A DNA stretch of 22,233 bases from a virus. The DNA lies in IMG/VR virus record IMGVR_UViG_3300025138_000417, positions 1 to 22,233 of that record, one strand, 5' to 3'. The notes beneath the pieces are model-generated. The model was given only the letters and a program-made list of their open reading frames with translations. It was not told the origin of the DNA and did not search any database. Position 1 is the first letter of the stretch. Each line of letters begins with the position of its first letter. Of this stretch, positions 1,074 to 17,554 are shown piece by piece. The position numbers and the translations under genes are program-made.

Positions 1074-1417
1074 TGACTGACAAAATCGGACAATCTAAAA
1101 AGGCAACTATTCAAGCCCTAGAAAAATCTCTGGGCGTTGTTTCGGTTGCTTGCCGGGCGGTAGGCATTAGCCGCGATACTCATTATCGATGGCTTAAAGA
1201 AGATGAAGCATATAAGAGCGAGGTAGAGGCGTTAGGCGATGTTGCCTTAGACTTTGCCGAATCCTCTTTGCATAAGCTAATCCAAGATGGAGTACCCTCG
1301 GCTACTATCTTCTATCTCAAGACCAAAGGCAAGAAGAGAGGCTACGTAGAAACCCAAGATATCCACGTAACCGCTCAGGCATCAGATGCGCCGCCTTGGT
1401 TCGAAGTAGAGGAATGA
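1073..1417 (+). CDS. Terminase small subunit-like helix-turn-helix protein
   Basis: A 114-residue protein whose ATG overlaps the upstream TAA (TAATG) and whose stop overlaps the terminase large subunit start (ATGA). Residues 9-40 form a homeodomain-like helix-turn-helix: IQALEKSLGVVSVACRAVGISRDTHYRWLKED. A helical segment LDFAESSLHKLIQDG and then ATIFYLKTKGKKRGY follow. This order (helix-turn-helix, then AESSL..LI..G....T.FYLKT.G..RGY) is typical of small terminase or phBC6A51-type proteins that recognise phage DNA and hand it to the large subunit. Position directly upstream of the large terminase supports this. The acidic C-terminus (WFEVEE) may contact the large subunit, which is inferred. 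Confidence 0.82.
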   Translation: MTDKIGQSKKATIQALEKSLGVVSVACRAVGISRDTHYRWLKEDEAYKSEVEALGDVALDFAESSLHKLIQDGVPSATIFYLKTKGKKRGYVETQDIHVTAQASDAPPWFEVEE

Positions 1418-2574
1418 AGAACGCGACTACCTACTACCAAGCGAAGAAGAGTAAAGCGCGGATTCAAGTTCATCAAGGAGGAACAAGATCTGGGAAGAGT
1501 TGGAGCATATTACAGATAATAGCGGAATGGTGCTATACGCATCAGAATTGGAATCATGTTATAACGATATGCCGAAAGACTCTCCCGGCCTTGAAGGCTA
1601 CCGCTATGAGAGATTTCCTAGAGATACTCGATGGCGCGGGTTGGTATGATGTATCCAACCATAACCGTAGCGATCATACCTATAAGCTATTCGGAAACCT
1701 AATCGAGTTCGTATCGGTTGACCAGCCGCAAAAATACAGAGGGCGGAAACGGCATATGCTTTTTCTCAATGAGGCGAACGAACTAAGCCGCGAGGATTGG
1801 AGGCAACTTATCTTGAGAACTGCTCCCGGCCCGATCCTTCTCGACTATAACCCAAGCGATGAATTTAGCTGGATATACGACGAGGTTCTACCTAGAGAGG
1901 ATTCCGAGTTTTTCCAAACTACCTACAAGGATAATCCGCATCTCCCGGAAGAACTGATACGGGAAATCGAGTTGCTCAAAACAGCCGATCCCAACTATTG
2001 GAGAGTATACGGATTAGGAGAGCGAGGTACTAGCCCGGCGGTTATCTTTCCTTCTTGGCATGGGGTAGATACCATTCCAGATAACGCCAAGCTAATAGCG
2101 CATGGTTTAGATTTTGGCTATACGAATGATCCTACGGCTTTGGTTTCAGTATACAACCGAGGGCATGAACTATTCATGCAATCGAGGCTGTACCAAACGG
2201 GATTAACTAACCTTGATATAGGAGATAAGCTAACCGAGTTAGGTATAGGAAGAGAGCCAATAGTAGCAGACTCCGCCGAGCCGAAGAGCATCGAGGAACT
2301 GCATCGATTAGGCTTCTCAGTTAAGCCAAGCAAGAAGGGGCCAGATAGCGTTCGAATCGGTATCGATATCCTTAGACGGCATCGGCTACACGTTACCAAC
2401 GATAGCGGAGATTTAATTAAAGAACTACGTAATTACAAATGGCAAACGGATAAGAACGGCCAGCAATTAAATAGGCCCGAATCCAGCGGATGGGATCATG
2501 CTATAGATGCTGCTCGTTACGTATGCCAAAACTACCTAGCAACAAACAAGCGAGGAAAATACTTTATATCGTGA
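1414..2574 (+). CDS. terL: Terminase large subunit
   Basis: The ATPase and nuclease of the DNA-packaging motor, 386 residues from the ATG at 1414 (ATGA overlap; an in-frame TTG at 1396 would add six residues). The N-terminal ATPase has Walker A GGTRSGKS (22-29), Walker B HMLFLNEAN (114-122, catalytic E120) and a coupling motif DYNPS (144-148). The C-terminal RNase H-like nuclease shows its acidic residues in GLDFGYTNDP (D233), IVADSAEP (D286) and WDHAIDAARY (D361). This is the Terminase_3/PBSX-type family, slightly short for it but with all motifs intact. It should dock on the portal encoded about 12 kb downstream, an unusual separation. The stop overlaps the next gene (GTGA). Confidence 0.95.
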   Translation: MKNATTYYQAKKSKARIQVHQGGTRSGKSWSILQIIAEWCYTHQNWNHVITICRKTLPALKATAMRDFLEILDGAGWYDVSNHNRSDHTYKLFGNLIEFVSVDQPQKYRGRKRHMLFLNEANELSREDWRQLILRTAPGPILLDYNPSDEFSWIYDEVLPREDSEFFQTTYKDNPHLPEELIREIELLKTADPNYWRVYGLGERGTSPAVIFPSWHGVDTIPDNAKLIAHGLDFGYTNDPTALVSVYNRGHELFMQSRLYQTGLTNLDIGDKLTELGIGREPIVADSAEPKSIEELHRLGFSVKPSKKGPDSVRIGIDILRRHRLHVTNDSGDLIKELRNYKWQTDKNGQQLNRPESSGWDHAIDAARYVCQNYLATNKRGKYFIS

Positions 2575-3289
2575 AGAGAACTATAACCGTACCGGAAACG
2601 CTTAACGATATTACGGTATCGCAGTACATGGAGTTGGTTAACCTACCGGAAGACTTAGAGCCAAATAGCCAAATGGCGGAAACTCTGCGCATAGCTTGCG
2701 GCCTCTCGAAAAAGGATATCCTACATATGGAGAACGCCGATCTCGTAAAGATTATCGGTATCCTATCTGGCATTATTGACGGAGCAGATAACGCTGAATT
2801 TATGGAGTTCATAGAGTTGGACGGAGTACGCTACGGCTTCCATCCGAACCTAGCAAAGATTACCGTAGCCGAGTTTGCAGATTTGGAGATGCTTTGTAAA
2901 GACGCGAATAAGAACCTACCTACTATATGCGGCATCCTTTACCGTCCGGTTATAGAAGAGCATTCCGGGTTCTATGCTATCGAGCCATACGATGGAGAAG
3001 ATAGGGGCGCGATATTCTCACTCGCTCCCGCTGGGCTTGCTTTAGGTGCGCTCGGTTTTTTTTTGTCCGTAGGGCTGAAATTGCAGAGCAGTTTGGCCAA
3101 CTATTCCAAGGAGATGAAGGAGGGGCAATCTCTGATAAGTGGGGATGGTTTGCCGTTATTGTTGCGCTGGCGGGAGAAGACGTTACCAAACTCGAAGCCG
3201 TGGAGCGCCTGCAAGTTAATGTGGCCCTTTCGTTCTTGGCGTACCAACAAGATCTAAGAACAAGTAAAAGCATAAACGTTCCAACATGA
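2571..3289 (+). CDS. Tail assembly chaperone-like protein, read through a -1 frame change at a T9 run
   Basis: The GTG at 2571 overlaps the terminase stop (GTGA). The N-terminal part (VKRTITVPETLNDITVSQYMEL) and the segment around EFMEFIELDGVRYGFHPNL look like a Bacteroidota-phage family I associate with tail assembly. At T9 (3056-3064) the zero frame (GGT TTT TTT TTG) turns into a Trp/Arg-rich low-quality tail ending at 3257. The -1 frame instead gives FVRRAEIAEQFGQLF, DKWGWFAVIVALAGEDVTKL and ALSFLAYQQDLRTSKS, a well-formed continuation. It stops at 3287-3289 in an ATGA overlap with the next gene, like its neighbours. The full product would be 239 residues. Frameshifted tail chaperones (lambda G/GT) are known; transcriptional slippage or a miscalled homopolymer are alternatives. 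The chaperone call is an inference. Confidence 0.65.
3056..3064 (+). other. T9 slippery run, probable frameshift site
   Basis: Nine consecutive T read as TTT TTT TTG in the zero frame. T_TTT_TTT (3056-3062) satisfies the X_XXY_YYZ rule for -1 ribosomal slippage, and a run of nine T is also long enough for RNA polymerase slippage. The coding signal moves from the zero frame to the -1 frame here; the +1 frame meets TAG within three codons. One additional T would make the gene continuous, so a sequencing or assembly indel must also be considered. Confidence 0.6.
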
Positions 3290-3744
3290 TTACAGTTAAG
3301 AACCTCATAGATACCCTAGAAACGGTATCTACCTCGAACTACTTTATCCGATCATTCAAAGCCGGGGAGATGAGCGAAGTAGACTTAAACAAATTGGGAG
3401 CAACTGATTATCCGTTATGCTTTGCCGATATAGGATCAGCAACTATTGAACGCGGCGCTCTGATTTACGACTTAGATATTCTAGTAGCGGATATCGAGAA
3501 GAGCGGAACAACGCAACATCCGCAAGCAACAAGCGATACTCTCGAAACGCTCCACGATTTAATTAACCAATTCCATCAGAGCCTTTCTAGTTCTTCCGAT
3601 GTTGGGGCGGATTACATTATAGAGATGCCCGTAAGTTGCCAAGCCTTTACCGGGAGATTTGATAACATTCTTACCGGTTGGGTAGCATCTGTTCGCCTCT
3701 CTGTTCCGAATACGAATAACCTCTGTATCGCTCCCTTCACATGA
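3286..3744 (+). CDS. Tail completion/terminator-like protein
   Basis: A 152-residue protein starting in an ATGA overlap with the -1-frame product upstream and ending in another with the next gene. The layout is an N-terminal helix (ITVKNLIDTLETVS), then a central strand pair (DYPLCFADIGSA, GALIYDLDILVADIEK), a helix (TLETLHDLINQFHQSL) and a C-terminal beta part (FTGRFDNILTGWVASVRLSVPN). This pattern matches short tail-completion or neck proteins of Bacteroidota siphophages, where a YPL segment is followed by a 'bilayer' of strands, a date-like helix and a final FxGxxxxxxGW strand. It would cap the tail tube before joining the head. No motif is diagnostic, so the assignment rests on shape, size and position. 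Confidence 0.5.
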   Translation: MITVKNLIDTLETVSTSNYFIRSFKAGEMSEVDLNKLGATDYPLCFADIGSATIERGALIYDLDILVADIEKSGTTQHPQATSDTLETLHDLINQFHQSLSSSSDVGADYIIEMPVSCQAFTGRFDNILTGWVASVRLSVPNTNNLCIAPFT

Positions 3745-4331
3745 ATAACGTAATCTTTATCGGAGGGGCTGGCGTTCCAATGGATAATACTATAGAGGAA
3801 CTACAAGCCAGCGGAAAAGAGATTATCCGAAGGGCAAGGATTAGACTAGCTAGAAACGATAAGAACGTAACCGGGAGGCTACGCGATTCGATGCGGGCTA
3901 CCGTGGATATCGTCGAACCAAAGGATACTGTATTTCTAGCCTTCACTTTTAAGGGGGCTGCTTATTGGAACTTCGTAGATCTTGGAGTTAAAGGCTCGCT
4001 CTCAAGTAACAAAGCCCCGAACTCACCTTACCGATTTGGAACAGGTACGGGAAGGAAGGGCGGCCTAACGAGCGGAATCGATAGATGGGTTATCCAAAAA
4101 GGATTAGACGGAACCAGAGATGCACAGGGCCGATTTACTCCTAGAAAGACTTTAGTACGCCTTATCGTAAACAAGATATTTACTACAGGTATTAAGCCTA
4201 GCTACTTCTTTACTGCTCCATATGATGCAGTTCTTAAAGAGCGTAAAACCGATCTAGCTAAAGCCATTGGATTAGATGTTGCCTCGCTCATCGTTCAAGC
4301 CCTTAGCCCAATTACTACACCTTCTGAATAA
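3741..4331 (+). CDS. HK97 gp10-like tail/head-joining protein
   Basis: A 196-residue protein. The start at 3741 (ATGA overlap) is preferred over the internal ATG at 3780. After a short hydrophobic N-terminus comes a helix (NTIEELQASGKEIIRRARIRLA), then TGRLRDSMRATV, a beta segment ending AYWNFVDLGVKGSLSS, a Gly-rich SPYRFGTGTGRKGG and a C-terminal GIKPSYFFTAPYDAVL. The order 'TGxLRxS ... Y..FVDLGVKG ... PSYFFTAPY' is characteristic of the HK97-gp10 / minor tail superfamily as seen in Bacteroidota phages. Members act at the head-tail interface. Its place beside the tail-completion-like protein fits. The next gene starts at TAATG. Confidence 0.7.
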   Translation: MNNVIFIGGAGVPMDNTIEELQASGKEIIRRARIRLARNDKNVTGRLRDSMRATVDIVEPKDTVFLAFTFKGAAYWNFVDLGVKGSLSSNKAPNSPYRFGTGTGRKGGLTSGIDRWVIQKGLDGTRDAQGRFTPRKTLVRLIVNKIFTTGIKPSYFFTAPYDAVLKERKTDLAKAIGLDVASLIVQALSPITTPSE

Positions 4332-5776
4332 TGGCCGTATCTATCATCCAAGAACCAGCGACTCGATTCTTACAAACTACGAGGATACCTATAATCCTCC
4401 AAGCATATGAGAACGCAAACGCGGGAGAACCTAAGTATCGCTTTATCCTAGAGATTAAAGATAGCACTGGAACTTCATTAGCTACCTTAAAGACGTTTCC
4501 GAGCGGCCCTAACTCAAACTCTACCGCCTTCGATGTTTCGAACATTGTAAACGATTACCTATCGAATACAATAATTAACTCGAACCAAACGGCTAACTAT
4601 ATTGCTACGCTAGGTACTACAGGATTCGTACCGAGTAAATCGTATAGCAGTTCGGGCGATGGAACGTATGGACAATCGGCACAATTCGAACTAGAACTAG
4701 GATACGAATATGCTCTATCTGCTACCGCTGCTCCTATTGAATATCGAAACCAACAGAGTACAACGTTCTTTGCTTTTCGTAATGCTCCAGATTCTTACGT
4801 AACTACATGGAGCGCAAGCCGAGGCGATGGCAGATACCAAGCCGATGTAGGGAATACGGGATCTATAACCGATGCGGCTAATGAGAATAACAGATTTATG
4901 AGCGGCGCTCCTTTACTTGGAGAAAACCCTACAGGATTAGCAGCCCTAGAAATGATTGGCACTAACATACAATCGAGCGAATCCTATACCCTTGCATTCT
5001 CCCCGGTAGAAAAAGTAGCTACCCAAGTGACTAGGCTAATAGATAGAATCTTTATTAGATGCTATGATGTTACCGGTACGCAAATCGGAACCGATCAATC
5101 TATAGAGTATATCAATGCGAACGGCGGGCCTGTTGGTTTCCCGGTAGCAACCCAAGAAGATTTCGTATACTACTTCGGTGCTGGCCCAAAGAACTTACAG
5201 GAGCAAACCGATAACTCTACTCTAGCCGGATATTTTTCAGCCGGAACAGTTGCCTCATATTACGTTTGGGGCGCATATGATTCAACGCCGGCCAACCAAG
5301 TAACGGGAGTATTTAAATTTACTATCTTAGATAACTGCTCTAAATATCCATCGAGAAGAATAGCCTACCTAAATAGAGAAGGCGCATGGGATTACTTTAC
5401 ATTCGATCAAAGGAGCGTAAAGAGCCTATCAAAAATTGATAGAAGCACCTTTAGAAAAGGGCGCGGTAATTGGGAGGAGATTTCAAATACTACGCAATTT
5501 GGCTACAATGTATTCGATAGAGGCGAAACAGTAACTAACGTAGAAGCCGAGCAAATAGAAAGCCTTTCTACCGATTGGCTGAATGCTCGTTACGTTAACA
5601 TGATAGAGGATCTCGTTACTTCGCCTTCGGTTTTTATCTACGATAGCGGGAACCCATCGGGAGCCGTTCCGGTATTGGTTACCGATAACAACTTTATTAC
5701 CAAAACCAACGCGAACGATAAACTCTTTAACTATACGATTAAAGTAAAGTACGCGAACCGCCCCTATCTCCAATGA
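4331..5776 (+). CDS. Tail-tip structural protein, Bacteroidota phage family
   Basis: A 481-residue, beta-rich protein in a TAATG overlap with the gp10-like gene. It has few charged clusters and many Ser/Thr/Asn/Gly. Recognisable segments are FDVSNIVNDYLSN (about 68-80), GAPLLGENPTG (about 193-203), and a C-terminal block with RRIAYLNREGAWDYFTFDQ, then TFRKGRGNWEE and WLNARYVNMIEDLVTSPSVF. The 'R.aYLN..GaWDYFTF' block recurs in large tail proteins of Bacteroidota siphophages, next to the larger tail-tip protein, as it does here. A distal-tail or upper-baseplate role is inferred from position; no enzymatic motif or signal peptide was seen. The stop overlaps the next gene by ATGA. Confidence 0.55.
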   Translation: MAVSIIQEPATRFLQTTRIPIILQAYENANAGEPKYRFILEIKDSTGTSLATLKTFPSGPNSNSTAFDVSNIVNDYLSNTIINSNQTANYIATLGTTGFVPSKSYSSSGDGTYGQSAQFELELGYEYALSATAAPIEYRNQQSTTFFAFRNAPDSYVTTWSASRGDGRYQADVGNTGSITDAANENNRFMSGAPLLGENPTGLAALEMIGTNIQSSESYTLAFSPVEKVATQVTRLIDRIFIRCYDVTGTQIGTDQSIEYINANGGPVGFPVATQEDFVYYFGAGPKNLQEQTDNSTLAGYFSAGTVASYYVWGAYDSTPANQVTGVFKFTILDNCSKYPSRRIAYLNREGAWDYFTFDQRSVKSLSKIDRSTFRKGRGNWEEISNTTQFGYNVFDRGETVTNVEAEQIESLSTDWLNARYVNMIEDLVTSPSVFIYDSGNPSGAVPVLVTDNNFITKTNANDKLFNYTIKVKYANRPYLQ

Positions 5777-8700
5777 TTGAACTAAGAGCCAGAGAGCAAC
5801 AAGGTAGCCCGGCCCCGTTTATAACCTTAGATTTAGAAAATGCCCCTTCAATAGCTTTAAATCTTTCGGTAGCGAAACCGGGAGAACTGATGAAGAGGAG
5901 CAGCCCCTATTCGCAAACTTTCCGCCTTCCGTTTACCGATAAGAACGATAGATTTTTTGGAGCGTTTTACGATGCCAATTTAGTAGATGGAGATTTTAAC
6001 CCCGGTTCGAATACGTACGCTATTATAGTAGAGAACGGATCGGATGTAATTAGGGGAACCCTTCGGCTGTTCTCGGTTAATTTGCTCAATCGCTATTACG
6101 AGGTTAGCGTTCAAGGAGAGGCGGGCGATTTGTTTACAACTATTGGCGTAAAAACTCTACGCAATGCTTTCCAAAACTCTAGCGGGGTAGATCTTACTAC
6201 CTATAACTTTGTAATGAACGCGGCTAATATCAAAACTAGCCAAACCGTTACGAACGATATTACTAGCGGAAGCATTGGAGCCGGTACGGTAATAGTTCCC
6301 TTTATCGATCATGGACTAATAACAAGCGGCCAGCCAATCTACGGAGATAACATAGCTTCGGGAGGATTATTTAATAATGCTTCCTTTGAGCAGTTTCTTG
6401 TTCGAGGCGGCGATTTTAAACCCGCGATAAAATTAAAAGCCGTATTCGATAGGATACTATCGGAGGCGGGATTTACTTACTCTTCTACGTTTCTATCTAG
6501 CAGTTACTTTAGTTCTCTCTATATGACTCTCGCAGATCATATGGAACGATATGCTCGCAATGCGGTAGACGATTGCCGGGTAGGTTTAGACCAGAACTTC
6601 GTTACTTCGAATTTTAACGTAGAGAACGAAGTAGCGATTTACTTTGGAGATGAAACAACAGCAAGCGGATTTTTTGACGTAGGAAATTTACATAATGGTT
6701 TGAGTTACGTTGCTCCGGAAAGCGGTAACGTAGAATTTAGCTACTCCATTTTCATTCAATCGGGCGGCAGTAATTGGACGGTAGGATCTGTTTTTGTAGA
6801 AGTAGTTTCCGCTAGTGGTCAATCGAGCGGATCGGTTATAACGGTATTGGCTACGCAAGGCCAAATAGCACAGGTAACGGCAACGGGAGTTATCCCAGAT
6901 GTACAACAATTTGAGGCGGTACAATTAAGGATCTGGTTCAATCCGTTTTTTCAAATAAGTAACCCAGATCAGAACGTAACCGTTCTACAATCAAACGGAG
7001 GCGTTAATTCCTTTATCTATTTCAAAGGCGCTCAGGCTATCGAAGCGGAATGCTTAGTTCCGCGATGTATGCCGCCAGTATCTCAGGCCGCATTTATTAA
7101 AGACTTAGCGCAAAGGTTTAACCTAGTTATCGAGGCGGATATAGATAACCCTTCGCAACTCATTATCGAACCCTACGATACTTGGATAGAATCGGGTTCT
7201 ACTTTGGATTGGTCGGATAAAATGGACTATGATAAGGAGCGCAAGATTCAACCTACTACGCAACTAAAAACGAAAACGATTAACCTAGGCGATGCTCCAT
7301 CTAGCGATGTAGGAAATACCTATATCCAAGAAAGCGGAGGTACAACCTTTGGCCGTTATGTTCAAGTTATAGATGATGAATTTTCGCAAGGTGAGTTAAA
7401 GAATACTCCGTTATTTGCTCCGTTCCATGTTTACCCGATTCCTAATAGTTATGGGGATCCAAATACAGATATTCCCGGATATCTAGCCGGTAGGTTCTAT
7501 AGCGTTAACGATGAGGGCGCTACTTCATGGAAGGCCCAACCGCCGAAACTCTTTTGCCTACAATCGCTAATAACGCTTCCCGCTTCTATATTCATACAAG
7601 GAACTGAGTTTACGGATTTAGCTTTTTGCTCTCCATATAACGAAAGCCCCGTAACAAGTACCGCGCTCTCTTTATATTGGCAAGGAACTACCCCGCCATT
7701 CTCTATGAATAGCGCGTTAATTAGCCAAACAAGTGTAGGTGGTTATTTTCATCAGTATTGGCGCAAGTATATCAATTCCATCTATTCGCCAGATTCACGG
7801 ATATTTGAGGCATCATTTTATCTAACGGCATCCGATATCAGATCGCTGCGATTTAATAACCGAATCTTTATAGAGGGAAGCGCATACCGTTTAACGGAGA
7901 TCAGAAACTATCAAGCCGGAACCCACGAAACAACGCAATGCGTTTTCCTTCGAGATTTAGGAAGAGAAACGTTCGGCGGCTGTGAGAACTATCCAACCTT
8001 TCCCCTCTTCGATGGTACGGTTCGCTTTGTAGATTCTACCGGCACACCGGTAACCGATCCCGGGCAAATCTGTTGCGAGTCTAACGGCTTTACTTACCAA
8101 GATAATCTATGCTGGTGGAATCCGCCCGATAACGATACAGGAGGAGGAGGAGCAACCGGAGGAGGTGGCGGCGGCCCTATCAAAGATGATGTAGTAATAG
8201 ATAGCGGCTTTACTGGTGGAGGAGGCAACCCATCAGGAGGAGGCTTGCCCGGTAAAGTTTCTGTAGATGATTACGATGAGAGCGCAGAAGGAACGGCTAG
8301 GCATCAATTAAACCGATTGAACCTACCCGCTAACCAAACAACCCGAAGAGTAAGAAACCTATCGAATGGCGATATAGCCGTAACCGATCGCTTTATAATG
8401 ACCGGTCGAACGGATGGCTCTACAACTTCAGCGGCTCGGCCGGTAGGTGGCGGACGTATAATTATGGTAGATGAGGCTACCCATGCTGCATTTACTATCC
8501 GGGCAACAAGTGTACAAGTAGGAAAAACGGGAGGAACCGGAAACGTAGGAGATCAGGATTTTCAAGAATGGACGGCTATAGTTCGAGGCTCGGATTCCTT
8601 TACCCAAATTAATTCGCAAACCCAAGAAAAAACACCGACTACAGGCGCTCGAACAGTTAGCATAGCTACCGCATCCAGCGGAACACAAAAAGGAACGGTA

Positions 8701-8865
8701 AGGATTTTAATTACTTCAGATACGGGAAGCGAATGCGAATGGGAGTTAGATGTAGAAATGACTCGTACAGTTTCTATATCTAGTTTCAGAGGGCAAGACG
8801 CAATAACAACCGAGAGCGGAGATCCTATCATTACAGAAGATAGCCTCGTAATAATTCAAGAATGA
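5773..8865 (+). CDS. Large tail-tip/hub protein with glycine-rich linker and C-terminal extension
   Basis: A 1030-residue protein starting in an ATGA overlap. The N-terminus (LDLENAPSIALNLSVAKPGELMKRSSPYSQTFRLPFTDKNDRFF) is the typical opening of large tail proteins in Bacteroidota siphophages. Around residues 440-530 is a second conserved block: FIKDLAQRFNLVIEAD, LIIEPYDTWIESGSTLDWSDKMDY, then KIQPTTQLKTK. These suggest a tail hub. From about residue 788 to 830 there is a Gly-rich hinge, with GGGGATGGGGGG and a second run of GGGG. The last 200 residues form a separate beta-rich region containing TGGTGNVGDQDFQEW and repeated Thr/Ser-rich strands, possibly an adhesin-type extension. A hub plus extension could contact the cell surface; this is inferred. 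Confidence 0.65.
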   Translation: MIELRAREQQGSPAPFITLDLENAPSIALNLSVAKPGELMKRSSPYSQTFRLPFTDKNDRFFGAFYDANLVDGDFNPGSNTYAIIVENGSDVIRGTLRLFSVNLLNRYYEVSVQGEAGDLFTTIGVKTLRNAFQNSSGVDLTTYNFVMNAANIKTSQTVTNDITSGSIGAGTVIVPFIDHGLITSGQPIYGDNIASGGLFNNASFEQFLVRGGDFKPAIKLKAVFDRILSEAGFTYSSTFLSSSYFSSLYMTLADHMERYARNAVDDCRVGLDQNFVTSNFNVENEVAIYFGDETTASGFFDVGNLHNGLSYVAPESGNVEFSYSIFIQSGGSNWTVGSVFVEVVSASGQSSGSVITVLATQGQIAQVTATGVIPDVQQFEAVQLRIWFNPFFQISNPDQNVTVLQSNGGVNSFIYFKGAQAIEAECLVPRCMPPVSQAAFIKDLAQRFNLVIEADIDNPSQLIIEPYDTWIESGSTLDWSDKMDYDKERKIQPTTQLKTKTINLGDAPSSDVGNTYIQESGGTTFGRYVQVIDDEFSQGELKNTPLFAPFHVYPIPNSYGDPNTDIPGYLAGRFYSVNDEGATSWKAQPPKLFCLQSLITLPASIFIQGTEFTDLAFCSPYNESPVTSTALSLYWQGTTPPFSMNSALISQTSVGGYFHQYWRKYINSIYSPDSRIFEASFYLTASDIRSLRFNNRIFIEGSAYRLTEIRNYQAGTHETTQCVFLRDLGRETFGGCENYPTFPLFDGTVRFVDSTGTPVTDPGQICCESNGFTYQDNLCWWNPPDNDTGGGGATGGGGGGPIKDDVVIDSGFTGGGGNPSGGGLPGKVSVDDYDESAEGTARHQLNRLNLPANQTTRRVRNLSNGDIAVTDRFIMTGRTDGSTTSAARPVGGGRIIMVDEATHAAFTIRATSVQVGKTGGTGNVGDQDFQEWTAIVRGSDSFTQINSQTQEKTPTTGARTVSIATASSGTQKGTVRILITSDTGSECEWELDVEMTRTVSISSFRGQDAITTESGDPIITEDSLVIIQE

Positions 8866-9044
8866 GAAAATACATTCATAACACGGGAGAGATAATCGTT
8901 AAGGCGCTATCTATTTCTCAGAAAGTAGAGGTTTACGGCCATGATGATTTAGGCCGCCTCTATGGTTACTATGAACTCGGTAACGAATCGCCTTGGAGTA
9001 AAATTAAAAAAGGTATCCGCAATGGCTCAGGACGTAGACGTTAA
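8862..9044 (+). CDS. Small protein between tail-tip and tape-measure genes
   Basis: A 60-residue protein with a strict ATGA overlap with the 1030-residue gene, the same junction used throughout the module, which argues that it is translated. The sequence contains GEIIVKALSISQKVEVYGHDDLGRLYGYYELG, a strand-rich stretch, and a basic C-terminus (KIKKGIRNGSGRRR). Its last 23 bases overlap the tape-measure start at 9022. I recognise no family. It could be a minor tail-tip component or a translational coupler for the tape-measure gene. Confidence 0.6.
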   Translation: MRKYIHNTGEIIVKALSISQKVEVYGHDDLGRLYGYYELGNESPWSKIKKGIRNGSGRRR

Positions 9045-10845
9045 CGTTAAAGTTACGGGCCTCGATAAAGCGGCCAAGGAAGTAAACAAGGTAGAAGAAT
9101 CTACCTCCGATCTAGGTTCCTCATTTGGGCAACTCGAAAGCGCGGCGGATAAGTTTACCGGCGGAGCGGTATCCGGACTAAGGGCAGCGGCCCAAGGAAC
9201 TAAGGCATTTATTAAAGGGCTGAAGCTAACGCGAACGGCTCTTATTGCTACCGGAATCGGAGCGGTTGTATTATCGGTTACTGCCTTGGTAGCGGCGTTT
9301 ACCAAAACGCAACGAGGGGCGGAGATGCTCGAAAAAGTTACGGCTGGCTTAGGGGCGGCTTTTGATGTTATTACAGATATCGCCGCCGGTCTTGGAGAGG
9401 CAATCGTTAACGCCTTCCTTAATCCGGTAGAAGCTATCCAAGGATTCGCGGAGACGGTTAAAACTTACGTTACCGATCAGATACAAAACATTATCGACGG
9501 CCTCGGCTTACTCGGTAAATCTATCTCGCTAGTATTCGAAGGCGAATGGAGCGCGGCGGCGGATGCCGCATTAGAAGGAACGAAGAAACTAGGAGAAGGC
9601 GTTACAAGATTAAACCCATTAACGGCCGGCCTTGCTTTGGCTGTAGATGGGGTAGTTAAGGTAGTTAATGAGGTAGCGCCAGCGATGGCTGAAGCGGCTA
9701 CAGCGGCTTCTAAATTATCTGCGGCATCTATTCAACTGCGAAAGGATCAGAGAGATTTGCAGTTAGAGTTCGCAGAAGGTAGAGCGCAAATTAAAGAGTA
9801 CAACCTAATCGCGGAGGATACTACTCGAACGCTAGAGGAACGATTAGAGGCAGCCCAAAAAGCTATAGATATTGAGAAGGGCTTAATGAGCGAGCGGCAA
9901 AGACTAGCAGAAGAAGAGGTAAGGATTCAAAAGGAAACGATGGCCCTAAGCGAGTCTACCGAGGAAGACCAACAAAGGCTAGTAGATCTTGAAGCGGCCT
10001 TAATTAACATCCGTACCGAATCGGCGGAAATGCAAACTACCCTAAATAATAAACTTAACATTATAAGGGATCAGGCATTAGCAGAAGAGGAGGCCCGTTT
10101 TCAGCGTAGCGAGGAACTCGATGCGGCTATTCAAACGGAAAGGGAAGCGGAGTACGCGGCAATCGTTGCAGATTACGAAGCAAAGTTTGCTCTGGCTGAT
10201 GAGTTCGGTAGAGGCGAAGCGGAGTTAAAAGAAATGCAAAAGGCGGAACTAGCGGCTATCGATAAGAAGTACGCGGATATCGCCATAGCAGAACAAGAAC
10301 GATTAGATGCGGCTACCCTTAAAACGCAACGGGATACCGAAGCCTTTAGGATTAAAGCTACTAAGGATACTCTTAACGTCCTGATGAGCCTAAGCGATAC
10401 GTTTGCCGGTGAATCGGAAGAGGCGCAACGTAGAGCATTCGAAAGAAATAAAGCCATAGCAACCGCGCAAGGATTAATAACTACCTACGAGAGCGCGATA
10501 GCGGCGTACCGTTCACAGTTGACGGCTACCCCAGATAGCCCTATTCGGGCGGCAATCGCGGCAGGTATTGCTACAGCGGCCGGATTGGCTAACGTAGCTA
10601 AGATTCGAAAACAGAAATTCCAAACTAGCGGAGGTACTGACGGCGGAGGGGATACCGGTACTCGATCGGCTACTATACCTACCCCGCAAGAAGTGGGATC
10701 CGATGTAGGCTCTTTAATACCTCAAGGAGATGCCATAGATTTTACCGCTCCAGAGGTTAAACCCGTGCAAGCATTTGTAATCAGTAACGAAATATCTAAC
10801 GCTCAGGCTCTCGATGCCGAGTTAGCGATTCAATCCACTTTGTAA
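9022..10845 (+). CDS. Tape measure protein
   Basis: I chose the ATG at 9022 (MAQDVDVNVKVTGLDKAAKEV), the usual opening of Bacteroidota phage tape measures, over an in-frame ATG at 8962 that lies deep in the previous gene; this gives 607 residues. It is alanine-rich and helical. A strongly hydrophobic segment spans about residues 72-94 (TALIATGIGAVVLSVTALVA), followed by long charged coiled-coil stretches (about 230-460). The C-terminal IRAAIAAGIATAAGLANVAKIRKQKF is a recurrent end of tape measures in these phages. The protein sets tail length; at about 1.5 angstrom per residue a tail near 90 nm is expected. No peptidase or lysozyme domain was seen. The only gene between it and the capsid module is the protease. 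Confidence 0.88.
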   Translation: MAQDVDVNVKVTGLDKAAKEVNKVEESTSDLGSSFGQLESAADKFTGGAVSGLRAAAQGTKAFIKGLKLTRTALIATGIGAVVLSVTALVAAFTKTQRGAEMLEKVTAGLGAAFDVITDIAAGLGEAIVNAFLNPVEAIQGFAETVKTYVTDQIQNIIDGLGLLGKSISLVFEGEWSAAADAALEGTKKLGEGVTRLNPLTAGLALAVDGVVKVVNEVAPAMAEAATAASKLSAASIQLRKDQRDLQLEFAEGRAQIKEYNLIAEDTTRTLEERLEAAQKAIDIEKGLMSERQRLAEEEVRIQKETMALSESTEEDQQRLVDLEAALINIRTESAEMQTTLNNKLNIIRDQALAEEEARFQRSEELDAAIQTEREAEYAAIVADYEAKFALADEFGRGEAELKEMQKAELAAIDKKYADIAIAEQERLDAATLKTQRDTEAFRIKATKDTLNVLMSLSDTFAGESEEAQRRAFERNKAIATAQGLITTYESAIAAYRSQLTATPDSPIRAAIAAGIATAAGLANVAKIRKQKFQTSGGTDGGGDTGTRSATIPTPQEVGSDVGSLIPQGDAIDFTAPEVKPVQAFVISNEISNAQALDAELAIQSTL

Positions 10846-10846
10846 G

Positions 10847-12046
10847 ATGAAAAAACTAGAACTGCTCATAGACGAAGAGAGCGAACAATTCGGAGTAGAG
10901 GCCATTAGTTTGGTTTTTAGCCCGGCCATAGAGGAGCATTTTATTTTCCTCAATAAAGGAGAGCGATTTACCTTCGCCCAAGTTGACGAAGAGAAGCGGC
11001 TACTAATCGGCCCAGCCCTTATTCCGAATAAGAATATCCCCAGATTCGACCAGCAGAATAACGAAGAGTACGAGGTTTACTTTTCAGAGGCTACTGTAGC
11101 GCAAGCGGCGGAACTATTCTTAAAGGAGAAGCGAACCGATGCCTATACGGTAGAACATAAAGACGATGTAAACGGCCTCTCCGTTTTCGAGAGTTGGATA
11201 GTACAAGACTCTAAGAAGGATAAAGCCGCACTCTATGGGTTCGATGTTCCCGTAGGTACTTGGATGGTTTCGGTTAAGGTGCATAATGATGAGGTTTGGA
11301 ATCAAGTAAAGGGAGGAGAATACCGAGGCTTCTCTATCGAAGGTTGGTTTGTAGATCGCTTAGTTCATATGCAAGAAGGCCCAACCTTAGAAGAGGTAAC
11401 CTTAGCAGTTAAGGAGGCGCTCGTTCCTATCGATTTCTTAGATGGCGCTCCGCTATTTGCGAGCGAGTTCGAGGCTAACTTATACGCTGAAACTATCGGA
11501 TGCTCTGGCTCTCACGTTCACAATTTAACGGGAACGGATTTCTATATGCCATGCGAAAACCATGAACAAGCGATAGAGTACGAAGGGCCAAGCATTATCG
11601 TAGCTATGGAAGCGGGAGAAAAAGAGAACTTCGAAAGCTATAGCGATTATCCAGATGCGGTAAAGAATAACGCTAAGAGAGGCATCGAACTAAACGAAGC
11701 CAACGGCAACAAATGCGCAACGCAAACCGGTAAAGTTCGAGCGCAACAGTTAGCAAAAGGCGAAGCGATTACCGAGGAAACTATTTCTAGGATGTTTAGC
11801 TACTTATCTCGCGCCGAAGCAAACTACGATCCGGAGGATCCTAATGCTTGCGGAACTATCTCCTATCTTCTTTGGGGAGGTAAGAGCGCGAAGAGTTGGG
11901 CCGAGAGTAAGTTAAACCAACTCGAAAAGTTAGAACTTGAGGCGTATCCGTGGGAGGAATGTATAGCCGAACAGATGGCGGAATACGGTAGCCGCGAAAC
12001 GGCGGAGAAGATTTGCGGAGCAATCAAAGCAAAATATGGTAGTTAA
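10847..12046 (+). CDS. XkdF-like prohead protease fused to two additional modules
   Basis: A 399-residue protein starting one base after the tape-measure stop. Residues 10-175 look like the XkdF-type prohead serine protease: LLIGPALIPNKNIPR, the histidine in YTVEHKDD (H104), GTWMVSVKVHND and the serine in YRGFSIEGWF (S163), as candidate catalytic residues. Next, residues 218-240 hold C219, H223, H225, C236 and H239 (GCSGSHVH and YMPCENHEQ), possibly a metal site. Residues 265-360 form a helical module with DYPDAVKNNAKRGIELNEANG, RAQQLAKGEAIT and LLWGGKSAKSWAE, known from proteins of other Bacteroidota phages. The last 35 residues (ECIAEQMAEYG..ETAEKICGAIKAKY) are a short helix-hairpin tail. 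It would cleave scaffold and capsid during head maturation. Confidence 0.8.
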   Translation: MKKLELLIDEESEQFGVEAISLVFSPAIEEHFIFLNKGERFTFAQVDEEKRLLIGPALIPNKNIPRFDQQNNEEYEVYFSEATVAQAAELFLKEKRTDAYTVEHKDDVNGLSVFESWIVQDSKKDKAALYGFDVPVGTWMVSVKVHNDEVWNQVKGGEYRGFSIEGWFVDRLVHMQEGPTLEEVTLAVKEALVPIDFLDGAPLFASEFEANLYAETIGCSGSHVHNLTGTDFYMPCENHEQAIEYEGPSIIVAMEAGEKENFESYSDYPDAVKNNAKRGIELNEANGNKCATQTGKVRAQQLAKGEAITEETISRMFSYLSRAEANYDPEDPNACGTISYLLWGGKSAKSWAESKLNQLEKLELEAYPWEECIAEQMAEYGSRETAEKICGAIKAKYGS

Positions 12047-12097
12047 AACTCAAACAATTTAACCTCTGGGAATATCTCAGAATAGAAAACCCAAGAT

Positions 12098-12802
12098 ATG
12101 AGCGTACTAGATCAAATCCGGGAGGCAGTAACTTCCCTCTCCAAAGAGCAACGCCGCGAGTTTTACGCGGAGGCTCGCTTAGATGATGGCCGGAAAATCG
12201 CAACAGAACGAGATGCCTTCGATCCGGGGGCTATGGTTTCCCTCCTTTCGGATGATGGGGAAAGCGTTCCTCTCGATGCCGGTACTTATAAACTCGACGA
12301 TGGTAAAGAAATCATCATAGACGAAAACAACCGCATCGCGGAAGCTACCGTAGACGATGGCGAAGTAGTAGAGGTAGAAGCCTCAGCCGATACCGAACTA
12401 ATGAAGTACGATGAAGTTCTAGCTGGACTTGTTGCCCGCTTCAATGTAGAGGAAGGCTTGGCTAAGACTATTACCGCTTTCGTTATGGACGTATACGGCG
12501 ATAGTATGGAAATGGAAACGATTCCCGAAGCCGAAGAAGAAGGCTATAAGGATGGAATCGCAGATGAAAAGGAAGATGTACGCGAGGATATGAATGCAGA
12601 GGCACTAAGCGAAATCGCTAAAGGTTTCGAGGCGCTCTCTAAGCGTATCGCCAATCTTGAAAACCAACCCGCCGCCAATCCGGTAGCGGTAACGCCGGAA
12701 GGCAATAAAGAAAACCTATCGGCTATGCGCAAGCCAGAAGGGAAAAGAAACAATTTTAACGCAGTAGAACGCGCTCTACAAATCATTAACGAGAACCGAT
12801 GA
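12098..12802 (+). CDS. Capsid scaffold-like protein
   Basis: A 234-residue, very acidic protein placed between the protease and the major capsid gene, where scaffolds usually lie. After an N-terminal helix (VLDQIREAVTSLSKEQRREF) a small beta region follows (about residues 28-90: GRKIATERDAFDPGAMV, VPLDAGTYKLDDGKEIIIDENNRI), resembling the beta-sandwich domain of scaffold-type proteins in Bacteroidota phages. A helical region rich in Glu and Lys (about 145-190) precedes a basic, Asn-rich C-terminus (MRKPEGKRNNFNAVERALQII), the usual type of capsid-contacting end. A 51-base gap separates it from the protease; its stop overlaps the capsid start (ATGA). Function is inferred from order and composition. 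Confidence 0.7.
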   Translation: MSVLDQIREAVTSLSKEQRREFYAEARLDDGRKIATERDAFDPGAMVSLLSDDGESVPLDAGTYKLDDGKEIIIDENNRIAEATVDDGEVVEVEASADTELMKYDEVLAGLVARFNVEEGLAKTITAFVMDVYGDSMEMETIPEAEEEGYKDGIADEKEDVREDMNAEALSEIAKGFEALSKRIANLENQPAANPVAVTPEGNKENLSAMRKPEGKRNNFNAVERALQIINENR

Positions 12803-13773
12803 ATAACGCTCTCTCTAAAAAGTACGATTTCGATATCGATGCTTCAGTAAACACGTATGCCGGCGAACTTGCCTTGCCATACGTTACCGCCGCCGTTCTC
12901 GGTGCGGAAACAATTAACCAAGACCGATGCCGCCTTATCGAAGGGGTTGTAGGTAAAGCCGTTATTAGCGGCCTAGCCTTTACGGATGTAATCCAAGCCT
13001 CCGCCTGTGCGGGAACGGATGGAGCGGATCTCGCTCTTACCGAACAAGTATTGGAGGTTAACTCTCTTATGGTGAAGGAAACAATTTGCCGTGGTACTAT
13101 CTTCCCTACATGGATGGCGGCTCAAGGCCGGATGCAACGTAACGGAGATATCCCGCCATCGTTTGCCGATTTCCTTTTGAGTTCAACAGCGGCACAAGCC
13201 GGAACATCTTTGGAAAATCTTCTCTGGCAAGGTGCTACAACTACTTTCCCTCTCGGCTTCCTTTCTAATAATGGAACAATTAACGAGGCGGGTATTGATG
13301 CATCGGCTTGTAAGGGCTTTATCGAGCATGATACGGGGGGTACGGCTTGGACTGCTACTACCATCCTCGGCCATATGAACGGAGTATTTGCGGCGGCTCA
13401 AGCAGTACCGGGAATTTTGCAGAAGCCCGGTTGCGGTTTCTACGTTTCATACGAAGCATACTCTTTCTACTTGCAAGCAATGGCAGCGCAGAACACCGGC
13501 CCCGGCTTTAATCAGTCTATGGAAGGTGCTACTTACTTGGGCTACCCCGTTTACCCAACGCCGGGCATTCCAAATGCTGTAGATGTTATGGTATTCACTT
13601 ATCCCGATAACCTCGTAGTAGGTACTAACGCATACTCTGGAAACGAACAAGCGGCATTGATTCCCGTATATCAATACGATGGAAGCGATAACGTAAAAGT
13701 TTCAATGGATTTCGCGGTAGGAGTACAAACCGCAGTAGCGGGCGATGGTGTTGTAGGATTCGATTTTACTTAA
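12799..13773 (+). CDS. Major capsid protein
   Basis: A 324-residue protein in an ATGA overlap with the scaffold. The order LALPYVTAAVLGAETI (about 24-39), a conserved Cys region (C70, SACAGTDGADLALTEQVLEVNSLMVKETICRG, C97), PTWMAAQGRM, SFADFLLSSTAAQAGTSLENLLWQGAT and a C-terminal FAVGVQTAVAGDG is the pattern of HK97-fold major capsid proteins in Bacteroidota phages. The acidic N-arm is short (about 12 residues), and no separate cleaved delta domain is obvious, which fits with a stand-alone scaffold. It forms the head shell. Cysteines C70 and C97 may form a disulfide, which is inferred. The gene is four bases from the tail-tube-like gene. Confidence 0.85.
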   Translation: MNNALSKKYDFDIDASVNTYAGELALPYVTAAVLGAETINQDRCRLIEGVVGKAVISGLAFTDVIQASACAGTDGADLALTEQVLEVNSLMVKETICRGTIFPTWMAAQGRMQRNGDIPPSFADFLLSSTAAQAGTSLENLLWQGATTTFPLGFLSNNGTINEAGIDASACKGFIEHDTGGTAWTATTILGHMNGVFAAAQAVPGILQKPGCGFYVSYEAYSFYLQAMAAQNTGPGFNQSMEGATYLGYPVYPTPGIPNAVDVMVFTYPDNLVVGTNAYSGNEQAALIPVYQYDGSDNVKVSMDFAVGVQTAVAGDGVVGFDFT

Positions 13774-13777
13774 TAAC

Positions 13778-14350
13778 ATGGCTTGCCTCATCAACGCCGG
13801 GCGGCTTGTTGAGTGTAAGGATGCAATCGGAGGGCTGAAGCGAATTTACCTCGCTAACTTTATCGAAGATTACGCCTTTACTCTTAACACTAGCGCCGGT
13901 ACTCTCAACCAGGTAGATGAACTACCCGCTACCACGGTATTCGAATACGATTTACGCCCCGATCTTAGCGGTCTTACGGTGAATATCGGAGCGGATAGCG
14001 CAACGGGTACAACGAGTTTCGAGCAAGTGTTGGCCTTTACTTTGCAACAAGTGAAGATCAAAGATGCCGAACAAATCCAAGCAATGGCCCAAGGGCAACT
14101 AATGGCCTTCTGCTTAGATAATAACGATAACGTTTGGGCTTGCGGCTTGCGGCACGGCATGGACGTTACCGCCGGAGTAGTTCAAACCGGAGCAACTCGA
14201 ACAGAGTTAACCGGGATCAACTTAACGCTAACGGGTATCGAACCAGATTCGTTCCTGCTTCTCAAGCCTACGGGGGGAGTTGGAACTACGAAGTATCCTT
14301 TCGATGGGATTACTACACCGGCTAATATTACTATTACGGTAGGAACGTAA
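13778..14350 (+). CDS. Tail tube-like structural protein
   Basis: A 190-residue protein directly after the major capsid gene. The N-terminus ACLINAGRLVECKDAIGGLKRIYLANF is typical of a small family of Bacteroidota phage structural proteins starting with a Cys-x-Gly-x-x-x-x-Cys-x-D pattern, which I link to the major tail protein. Further motifs are TVFEYDLRPDLSG, SFEQVLAFTLQQVKIKDAEQIQAMAQGQLMAFCLDNNDNVWACG (about 86-129) and a C-terminal TGINLTLTGIEPDSFLLL. The mix of strands with one central helix suits a tail-tube or decoration protein. Being next to the capsid and ahead of a strong terminator fits a product needed in many copies. No database check was possible. Confidence 0.6.
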   Translation: MACLINAGRLVECKDAIGGLKRIYLANFIEDYAFTLNTSAGTLNQVDELPATTVFEYDLRPDLSGLTVNIGADSATGTTSFEQVLAFTLQQVKIKDAEQIQAMAQGQLMAFCLDNNDNVWACGLRHGMDVTAGVVQTGATRTELTGINLTLTGIEPDSFLLLKPTGGVGTTKYPFDGITTPANITITVGT

Positions 14351-14379
14351 GACTTTGTTTTGGTTTATGGTTATAGATT

Positions 14380-14410
14380 GGGGCCGCCGTTATGGTGGCC
14401 CTTTTCTTTT
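14380..14410 (+). terminator. Rho-independent terminator after the head operon
   Basis: GGGCCGCC (14381-14388), loop GTTAT, GGTGGCCC (14394-14401), then TTTTCTTTT. The eight-pair stem has one G-U pair. It lies 30 bases past the tail-tube-like stop. This would close the high-expression block or attenuate readthrough into the portal. Confidence 0.85.
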
Positions 14411-14442
14411 GTCGAACGGAATAAGCGTATTTCTATCTTTAG

Positions 14443-14889
14443 ATGATGCTAGTACTTAGGAAGAATAAAAGCACGACCTTAACGGGATCCGCGCAATCTG
14501 TTGAATTTACGGATTTAGATTCTACAGCAACTTCTTTTCTGTTAGAATTAACCAGCAATAGCACGAACGAGGTTGCATATATAGCTTCTTCCATTGCACT
14601 AACTGGAACAGCGAACCGCCCTCGATGGGTATTCTTTGGATTTGCAGCGGGAACTAATACCTCGCAAGGGGTTGTTCCTGTTTATGATTTAAGCGGGCCT
14701 AAATATCCGGAGGGATTTTACTCCTATAATATCTACGCGCAAGTAACAGAGTTCAATCTTAGCCCATCGGGGTTATCTATTGTAAATTCGGGCTTAGCTT
14801 TTCTTCAAGATGAAGACGGCGCATTTACCGAGGCTACCTATACTTCTAATCCTGACTCCGTAGAGGGGTATACCTATTACACCGAATGA
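14443..14889 (+). CDS. Beta-rich structural protein upstream of portal
   Basis: A 148-residue protein with two adjacent ATG codons (14443, 14446). It begins MMLVLRKNKSTTLTGSAQSVEF, with strands and S/T-rich loops, and has the conserved-looking GPKYPEGFYSYNIYAQ (about 85-100) followed by NLSPSGLSIVNSGLAFLQ. The 'YP.GFY.Y.IY.Q ... L..vn.G.a.l' block is one I know from small structural proteins next to Bacteroidota phage portals. The gene sits after the terminator at 14380-14410. Its stop overlaps the portal start (ATGA), so it is coupled to it. It could be a decoration or neck protein; the sequence does not settle it. Confidence 0.55.
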   Translation: MMLVLRKNKSTTLTGSAQSVEFTDLDSTATSFLLELTSNSTNEVAYIASSIALTGTANRPRWVFFGFAAGTNTSQGVVPVYDLSGPKYPEGFYSYNIYAQVTEFNLSPSGLSIVNSGLAFLQDEDGAFTEATYTSNPDSVEGYTYYTE

Positions 14890-16982
14890 GCAAGAAGCAC
14901 GATTTTTCCCTATTCGATTTACCCTCTCACGAACTCCCGTTATTCGTTGAAACGCCGGGAAAGAAGTACGTAGATTACGGAGCCGATAACGCTTATGGCG
15001 ATTACTTACGCGATCTCTACCTAGGCTCTCCATTGCAAAGCGCCGTAGTTAACGGAGTGAGCGAGATGATTGCAGGCGATGGCCTAGGCGCTACCGATTG
15101 GGATGATAGCATAGAGAAGCGCGAGCAATGGTTAAAACTGCAAGCCCTTTTAAAGAGTAGCGATCGCGATTTATTACGTAGGATTTCTTTCGATATGAAA
15201 CTCTACGGCCAATGCTATGTATTCGTTATATGGAATAGAGCCAGAACAGAAATCGCCGAGATGCGGCATATCCCCGCGCAAACGGTGCGAAGTGGGTTAG
15301 CCTCTTCCGATGGTCGAATAGATACCTACTACATTAGTTCCCGTTGGGATATGGCTAGGAAATCGGAGTATGCCCCGGTAGCCTATCCCGCTTTTAATAC
15401 TGAGGATCGAACCGATCCGGCTCAGATATTCCAAATCAAAAGCTACCATCCGGGAGTTTTCTACTATGGCTTACCGGATTACGTAGGGGCTACAAACTAT
15501 ATCCAACTGGATAGAGAGATTAGCGCGTTTCACCTTAACAATATCCAAAACGGCCTCTTTCCTTCGATGCTCCTGAGCATGAATAACGGCATCCCTACAG
15601 ATGAAGAGAGAAGGATAGTAGAGCAGAAGATTAATCAAAAATTCTCTGGCTCAACTAACGCGGGCCGAGTACTGATTTCGTTTAATGAATCATCGGAAGA
15701 CCAACCAACTTTAACGGCTATCGATACAAACGGAGCCGATGGTATGTATCAGTTCCTTTCTACCGAGTGTACTACGAAAATCCTCGCGGGTTCTCGCATT
15801 ACTTCCCCGCTTCTATTCGGCATCCGTGGAGATGGTTCGGGCTTTGGAAATAACGCCGATGAATTGAAAGATAGCTATAGCCTCTTTACGAATACGGTTA
15901 TCGCTAGTTTCCAAACGGTTTTACTAGAGCATCTTAACGATATCTTTAGAATTAATGGGATAGATTTAGATCTGTTCTTTATCCCGCTCAAGCCAGCCGA
16001 TTTCATTGAAGTAGAAAGCGTAGCGGTACTTACTCCAGAAGAGCAAGAAAGAGAAGGAATAGAGGTAGAGCGAGTAGTTACGGAAGAGCCAACTATAAGC
16101 GTAGATCCGGCTATCGATCCGGATGTAGCAGAAGCAGCCGCCGAAGCCGATGCCTCATATAATGGGGCGCAGATATCCGCCGCCTTGGATATCATGATTA
16201 AGGTTAAAGAAGGCTTCTTAACTAGCGAGCAAGCTATTCTCTTCTTAGTCCAATTCTTAAACATTGACCAAGTAGATGCGCGTTCACTTTTTAGCGGAGC
16301 GGCTACGGGGTTGAGTACGATGCTTTCTAAAGAAGGCGCTGGCGAAGGGGTTGCGGAATGGTTAGTAAACCGCGCCGAGGATGAACCCGAAGGCTACGAG
16401 TTAATCGATTCGCGTAAGGTTGTATACGAACACGAAGAAAAACTAGATACCCTATTTAAGTTCTCCGCTTCTATGCCCAAGGGAGATTCTAGAAAGGTAG
16501 ATAAGAAGTACGATAGGGATTTAATTAAGGTACGATATGCCTATATGCCTCACGTAACCGGAACCTCCGGAACGCATACAAGCGGCCCAAAGAAAGGAGA
16601 GAAGTACAATAACGAATCTCGCTCTTTCTGTAAGATGATGGTAGCGGCTAGTAAGCGCGGTAAGGTATTCCGCCGATCTGATTTAGAAGCCGCCTCCGAT
16701 CAGGCCGTTAACCCCGGTTGGGGAGAAGGAGGAGCCGCAACGTACCCGATTTTCTTGTACAAAGGCGGGGGATCTTGCCAGCATTTCTTTGAGCGTAGGA
16801 CTTATCTAAGAAAAGGAAATAAGAAGATTAGCGTAAATCAAGCGCGTAAGATACTCCGCGAGGCGGGCCTACCGGCATTAGAAAAGAACGATCCTAAAGT
16901 AGCCAAGCTACCGCGCGATATGAAAGATCGAGGTTTCGTAGATGGTAGAGGCCCATTCACTACAGAAAGAACACCGAACTAA
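14886..16982 (+). CDS. Portal protein with extra C-terminal Cys/His module
   Basis: A 698-residue protein in an ATGA overlap. The portal core covers about residues 25-370: KKYVDYGADNAYGDYLRDLYLGSPL, ISFDMKLYGQCYVFVIW (about 100-116), HIPAQTVRSG, ITSPLLFGIRGDGSGFGNNADELKDSY (about 305-331) and the following helix. It should form the dodecameric DNA channel and bind the terminase. Residues 425-470 (NGAQISAALDIMIKVKEGFLTSEQAILFLVQF) are a helical piece common in phage portals. From about 545 there is an additional module with FCKMM (C582), NPGWGEGGAATYPIFLYKGGGSCQHFFERR (C631, H633) and a basic tail ISVNQARKILREAG. I know this module only from Bacteroidota phage portals; its function is unknown. 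Most portals are 400-550 residues. Confidence 0.88.
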   Translation: MSKKHDFSLFDLPSHELPLFVETPGKKYVDYGADNAYGDYLRDLYLGSPLQSAVVNGVSEMIAGDGLGATDWDDSIEKREQWLKLQALLKSSDRDLLRRISFDMKLYGQCYVFVIWNRARTEIAEMRHIPAQTVRSGLASSDGRIDTYYISSRWDMARKSEYAPVAYPAFNTEDRTDPAQIFQIKSYHPGVFYYGLPDYVGATNYIQLDREISAFHLNNIQNGLFPSMLLSMNNGIPTDEERRIVEQKINQKFSGSTNAGRVLISFNESSEDQPTLTAIDTNGADGMYQFLSTECTTKILAGSRITSPLLFGIRGDGSGFGNNADELKDSYSLFTNTVIASFQTVLLEHLNDIFRINGIDLDLFFIPLKPADFIEVESVAVLTPEEQEREGIEVERVVTEEPTISVDPAIDPDVAEAAAEADASYNGAQISAALDIMIKVKEGFLTSEQAILFLVQFLNIDQVDARSLFSGAATGLSTMLSKEGAGEGVAEWLVNRAEDEPEGYELIDSRKVVYEHEEKLDTLFKFSASMPKGDSRKVDKKYDRDLIKVRYAYMPHVTGTSGTHTSGPKKGEKYNNESRSFCKMMVAASKRGKVFRRSDLEAASDQAVNPGWGEGGAATYPIFLYKGGGSCQHFFERRTYLRKGNKKISVNQARKILREAGLPALEKNDPKVAKLPRDMKDRGFVDGRGPFTTERTPN

Positions 16983-17554
16983 TGAGTAACCTAGCCCTAT
17001 TCGTATCGCCTTCTAAGGTCAAAATAGAAACCGCTTTAGGCGGCTCTGTAGATGATAACCTTATAGCGCCATACATTAAGACGGCGCAAGAACGTTGGAT
17101 ACTTCCAGCAATCGGCCAGAGCCTTTACAACGCCTTGGCAAATGCCGTAGTTAATGCAGATGCTACAGCGGCGGAAACTACGTTGCTGAATGATTATATC
17201 TCTCCGGCTCTAGTTCCTCTTTCCTTTGCGGGCTTAATGCCTTTCCTACGGGTAAGGATGGTGAATAACTCTACGGTTATAATGTCGAGCGAACAGAGTA
17301 CCCCGGCATCTTATCAAGATATCCGGCCTCTAATTGATTCAAGTACGGAGATGGGCCAATTCCATATTCAAAGGCTAATCCGATACATCGATAATAATAC
17401 CGGACTATACCCGGAGTTAGGGCAAGAAGCGGCGGGCGAATTGCACCGTACCAGAAGAAATTATTTCGGCGGTTTGAATATCGATTATAACCCGAACCTG
17501 ACGAGGGAGGAACGCCTCCGCTTGCGAGCGGCCCTAGGTTGCGCTTATGGGTAA
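16982..17554 (+). CDS. Head-tail connector/neck protein
   Basis: A 190-residue protein in a TAATG overlap with the portal gene. It is helical, with VDDNLIAPYIKTAQERWILPAIGQSLYNAL (about 23-53), LLNDYISPALVPLSFAGLMPFL and FHIQRLIRYIDNN. The 'YI..AQ...I.P.LG..Ly..L' pattern is typical of the DUF6712-type head-completion proteins of Bacteroidota phages, which I place among gp6/gp15-like connectors. The position right after the portal supports a role between portal and tail. The C-terminus is basic (RREERLRLRAALGCAYG-like region) and its last bases overlap the small reading frame at 17547. Confidence 0.65.
   Translation: MSNLALFVSPSKVKIETALGGSVDDNLIAPYIKTAQERWILPAIGQSLYNALANAVVNADATAAETTLLNDYISPALVPLSFAGLMPFLRVRMVNNSTVIMSSEQSTPASYQDIRPLIDSSTEMGQFHIQRLIRYIDNNTGLYPELGQEAAGELHRTRRNYFGGLNIDYNPNLTREERLRLRAALGCAYG

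Follow-up and report, generated by a model that had tools for sequence, protein, structure and literature searches.

Ribosomal frameshifting has its textbook example in phage assembly genes that encode two products. The gene described here, which lies within a 22.2 kb IMG/VR phage contig (the whole stretch of DNA analysed, hereafter the window), resembles lambda G/GT and other phage tail assembly chaperone genes in that its two predicted products have a common N-terminal part and a -1 relation between their reading frames, and in its location among structural genes that precede the tape measure gene. However, lambda uses a ribosomal heptamer, whereas members of the window family instead carry an invariant run of nine or ten T nucleotides (T9 or T10) followed by a long, conserved zero-frame tail. 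The window gene also differs from lambda G/GT by residing directly after the terminase gene and by yielding no significant sequence or fold match.

Several known systems make use of slippage during RNA synthesis. In the Shigella genes mxiE (PMC1088944) and spa13 (PMC5009743), a non-templated U inserted at a U-run joins two frames to give a longer protein, as proposed here. These are bacterial type III secretion genes rather than phage genes, and the portions of the two sources considered here describe no phage-family-wide invariant run with dual coding, unlike what is seen in the window family. The dnaX gene of Thermus thermophilus likewise employs nine identical bases for programmed polymerase slippage (PMC1088944), but its run is A9 and slippage leads to a shorter product. 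Potyvirus P3N-PIPO is made when polymerase slippage joins a common N-terminal part to a -1 frame that overlaps another coding frame (PMC4761962), although in this instance the virus is a plant RNA virus, the enzyme is a viral RNA-dependent RNA polymerase, and the motif is a different one.

Homologues of the window gene occur in the Nonlabens (Persicivirga) phage P12024L as gp40 and gp41 (PHROG 32199 and 38404), with a T9 in the same place and the C-terminal domain in the -1 frame. The P12024L record annotates gp40 (the zero-frame part) and gp41 (the -1 part) as separate hypothetical genes and leaves their link unannotated. More generally, annotations in the family either omit the conserved domain or label it as a separate gene. 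We slightly favour the full proposal that, in a large phage family with mostly Flavobacteriia hosts where these can be named, polymerase slippage at a selected T9 or T10 replaces ribosomal frameshifting in setting the relative amounts of two assembly proteins, and that two functional C-termini are dual-coded past the site. The family, a very large set of environmental phages, points to transcription as the ratio-setting step, and provides a natural dual-coding overlap wherein selection can be measured in both frames. An isolated phage and bacterial genomes are among its members.

Architecture of the two-product gene

The T9 is located approximately 162 codons into a gene whose GTG start overlaps the stop codon of the terminase large subunit gene (Table 1). 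A first-pass annotation of the window had proposed a frame switch at this run that yields two products of similar length, and its coordinates (T9 at 3056-3064, zero-frame end at 3257, -1 end within the ATGA at 3286-3289) and product lengths of 228 and 239 residues hold. The switch itself now receives strong support from more than 330 homologous loci. Beyond the run, the -1 frame is open to the TGA at 3287-3289, such that the fused product would comprise 239 residues.

Table 1. Coordinates of the T-run and of the reading frames that meet at it in the window.
Feature	Position	Strand	Description
T9, putative slip site	3056..3064	+	GGT TTT TTT TTG in zero frame
Zero-frame ORF	2571..3257	+	228 aa; GTG start 2571, stop 3255-3257
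Shared N-terminal domain	2571..3062	+	164 aa, mixed alpha/beta; PHROG 32199 in 44/44 members
Zero-frame tail	3063..3257	+	64 codons plus stop; very probably dual-coded with the -1 domain
-1-frame C-terminal domain	3062..3289	+	75 aa, KWGWF motif; entered only past the frame switch
ATGA junction	3286..3289	+	start of next gene (ATG 3286-3288) overlaps the -1-frame stop
TAG closing the +1 frame	3070..3072	+	two codons past the run

The T9 is the sole run of at least nine T or A nucleotides within the window. One such run is unremarkable in a sequence of this composition, as 0.83 are expected from dinucleotide shuffles. Thus, what is surprising is not its presence but its conservation in 334 related loci.

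Conservation of the run and coding in two frames

Related loci were gathered by scanning viral contigs and bacterial genomes for matches to a profile of the N-terminal domain, which is common to 339 loci including that of the window. One search query was a manually composed guess at the family consensus, and its matches were retained only if they fit the window-family profile. The search patterns resided in the N-terminal domain and were therefore blind to the run. The C-terminal domain alignment was too variable for use in the viral-contig scan, and so loci were found through the N-terminal domain only; a C-terminal domain homologue joined to a different N-terminal part would escape this search. 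Five of the 339 loci fall outside the run-length count, as their contigs end at or before the run. Contig L048 ends at position 2988, inside its T-run, which might reflect trouble in assembling a homopolymer.

Among the 334 loci with an intact region, the run is T9 in 293 and T10 in 41, with no other length or motif observed. Some contigs were fetched repeatedly, and clusters therefore provide the better count, but the picture is unchanged when the loci are reduced to 85 groups at 70% identity or 36 groups at 50%. The run is always made of T and never of A. It occupies three codon phases across the loci (NTT TTT TTT TNN, NNT TTT TTT TTN as in the window, and TTT TTT TTT NNN) and always contains at least nine T's, such that a T lacking on one side is compensated on the other. 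Of the 331 loci in which the conserved C-terminal 'WGW' domain could be located, 330 have it in the -1 frame, in agreement with the frame relation annotated initially, and the sole deviating locus (L327) seems to carry an unrelated frame error within the C-terminal domain. Given this conservation of sequence, the locus almost certainly represents a conserved, programmed two-product gene. The hosts of these environmental phages, where they can be named, are mostly Flavobacteriia; searches for further isolates found no phages besides P12024L and P12024S.

Substitutions between relatives on the 3' side of the run are distributed as 241, 128 and 420 across positions 1, 2 and 3 of the -1 codons. 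In addition, PHROG 38404 (55 aa) matches the window protein only when the sequence is read in the -1 frame, and its length and this match suggest that it corresponds to the gp41 family of P12024L. Judged by the substitution pattern and the profile match, the -1 frame after the run is coding. Structure prediction for the C-terminal domain modelled alone was weak (pLDDT 65). Two properties looked for in a slippage site are present, namely a homopolymer of about nine A/T nucleotides kept between homologues (T9 or T10 in 334 of 334 loci) and, in the frame to which slippage leads, a coding sequence that is conserved.

The zero-frame tail also shows evidence of constraint. In none of the 317 loci that retain both ends is it shorter than 22 codons, although it stays open that long in only about 35% of sequences produced by synonymous re-drawing of the -1 codons, and the 64-codon tail of the window is longer than nearly all re-drawn sequences. 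Similarity between tail residues, which roughly follow the motif FF(Y/W)xLGxELL, gives a summed score of 13.8, compared with -0.3 (sd 1.1) in re-drawn sequences. Moreover, the -1 frame shows 0.078 silent third-position changes per site within the overlap versus 0.137 past the point where the zero frame stops (Fisher p about 1e-12 over 80 pairs, a value that is strong but not literal due to shared ancestry). Only about 5% of such silent changes would create a zero-frame stop, despite the roughly halved rate in the overlap. An open and conserved tail together with reduced silent change indicates that the long zero-frame tail is a conserved dual-coding overlap, and on these comparisons dual coding past the site is very probable. 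The earlier impression that the zero-frame end is not protein-like thus calls for correction, as the tail is conserved beyond expectation and silent change is curtailed where the frames overlap. Comparison among homologues therefore reveals the run as conserved, the -1 domain as present, and selection as acting in both frames.

The third frame behaves differently. All 317 complete loci close the +1 frame within 14 codons past the run, most often after two. Closure within three codons is seen in 80% of 44 representatives, compared with 60% after synonymous re-drawing, and this early stop might act as a safeguard where a transcript has lost a U.

Alternatives and the molecule that slips

The first-pass annotation had also considered that a T might be missing through sequencing or assembly error, in which case the gene would truly be one continuous frame, and some sequencing methods are indeed error-prone at homopolymers. 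However, a contig from another metagenome that is 99.8% identical (6 mismatches, gap-free across 3,460 bases) shares the T9, as do the isolated phage P12024L at the same place and the assemblies of Flagellimonas onchidii, Galbibacter pacificus and other bacteria. These matching sequences refute the missing-T explanation, and the agreement of 334 loci on T9 or T10, along with a zero-frame tail that is under selection in its own right, makes error the least credible of the explanations weighed. Phase variation, whereby DNA in the population would flip between T9 and T10 to toggle the long product, is also highly improbable. The family does contain both run lengths, but all 41 T10 loci keep the -1 relation, with length changes compensated such that the domain is never in frame, and T9 and T10 are never mixed in any cluster formed at 95% identity. 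On these two observations, phase variation was rejected.

The main rival is programmed -1 ribosomal frameshifting on a U_UUU_UUU sequence within the run, which would produce the same two proteins through slipping of the ribosome. This is the known mechanism of phage G/GT genes (PMC5009743), and T_TTT_TTT, which conforms to the X_XXY_YYZ heptamer, is in the right frame at every site, a circumstance inherent in any T9 by construction. However, such a heptamer requires seven T's in one phase, whereas 334 of 334 loci have nine or ten T's in three phases, and no alternative heptamer is used at any locus. Neither a conserved stimulatory structure nor a conserved Shine-Dalgarno-like signal was found, as downstream RNA structure gave a mean z of -0.26 versus -0.39 in a gene-interior control, and a Shine-Dalgarno-like motif resides upstream in only 7 of 43 sequences. 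Stimulatory structures and signals are frequent but not obligatory at phage frameshift sites, and the absence of RNA structures is therefore weak evidence. Base composition would be expected to add two T's beyond the heptamer in about 15% of lineages, or in 34% when the preceding codon is constrained to NTT, yet the extra T's are observed in all. RNA polymerase slippage predicts that selection acts on the total length of the run, and the presence of at least nine T's in three phases, when a heptamer would need only seven, favours slippage by the polymerase. We therefore judge ribosomal frameshifting to be rather unlikely as the main explanation. The interpretation in the initial annotation is thus partly supported, in that the two-product frame switch holds but the run-length statistics favour RNA polymerase slippage over the ribosomal heptamer that it placed first.

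On these statistics, RNA polymerase slippage is judged the most likely of the mechanisms and is probably the main one, although the identity of the slipping molecule and the ratio of the products are matters that we infer. The T9 would serve as a programmed slip site on which selection acts at the level of transcription. In this scheme, RNA polymerase, assumed to be the host enzyme, would at times insert one extra U when copying the nine T's; no RNA polymerase gene was recognized among the window genes scanned. A faithful mRNA would encode the 228-residue protein made of the N-terminal domain and the zero-frame tail, whereas an mRNA with U10 would encode the 239-residue protein in which the same N-terminal domain is joined to the conserved KWGW domain. 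If a U were lost, the result would be a short product that stops two codons past the run. The DNA directly past the run would thereby code in both frames.

T-runs are the main sites at which bacterial RNA polymerase slips, and insertions outnumber deletions (PMC6260861). Both the all-T run of the family and its need for a +1 insertion match this reported bias. In many bacteria, A/T runs are avoided from a length of nine (PMC1088944). Elsewhere in these phages (188 related loci, 774 kb), A/T runs of at least 10 are strongly avoided, with observed/expected ratios of 0.2 and 0.12 when the site is excluded, and runs of nine are mildly avoided (0.77). Thus, T9 is at the edge of the tolerated length, and the stronger avoidance of longer runs suggests that the polymerase used by these phages turns error-prone at about ten. 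Several points weigh against polymerase slippage: runs of nine are only mildly avoided elsewhere; any T9 includes T_TTT_TTT, so ribosomal shifting may contribute; and the amino acids of the two frames could keep some of the extra T's. The open-access papers searched contained nothing specific about tail genes of phages that slip on poly-T, nor about this site in these phages, and one paper suspects slippage in the tape measure gene of an Acinetobacter prophage (PMC6095929).

Candidate function and gene neighbourhood

The two proteins would probably act jointly in assembly of the virion, likely of the tail, in a manner akin to lambda gpG and gpGT. As judged from sequence, the locus shares with G/GT-type genes two products that have a common N-terminal domain and arise through a frame switch, and it is placed among the structural genes that separate the terminase from the tape measure. 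However, it is not directly upstream of the tape measure gene, whose ORF starts at 8962, approximately 5.7 kb downstream. The shared N-terminal domain was modelled with high confidence (pLDDT 93.6), but no PDB match was found for it by sequence or by fold. No significant Pfam match was obtained for the gene, and Phage_TAC_7 gave sub-threshold matches in 3 of 44 members (best E 0.054). Among predicted viral structures (BFVD), the matches to the N-terminal domain are mostly uncharacterized phage proteins, and one weak match is named as a tail assembly chaperone (E 0.08). As a best guess from its two-product design and its position, we infer a function like that of the G/GT tail assembly chaperones, which we hold to be somewhat probable. 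The chaperone-like label given at first is therefore plausible through the lambda G/GT analogy, but sequence and fold lend it weak, sub-threshold support.

The surrounding gene order is unusual, with positions 1396-17554 of the window carrying the terminase, tail-like genes, the tape measure, a protease and a capsid-like protein, and with the portal last. Two of these neighbours have long C-terminal extensions past their recognized domains: the protease-like protein (10847-12046) matches its PHROG over residues 12-177 of 399, and the portal-like protein (14886-16982) over residues 18-370 of 698.
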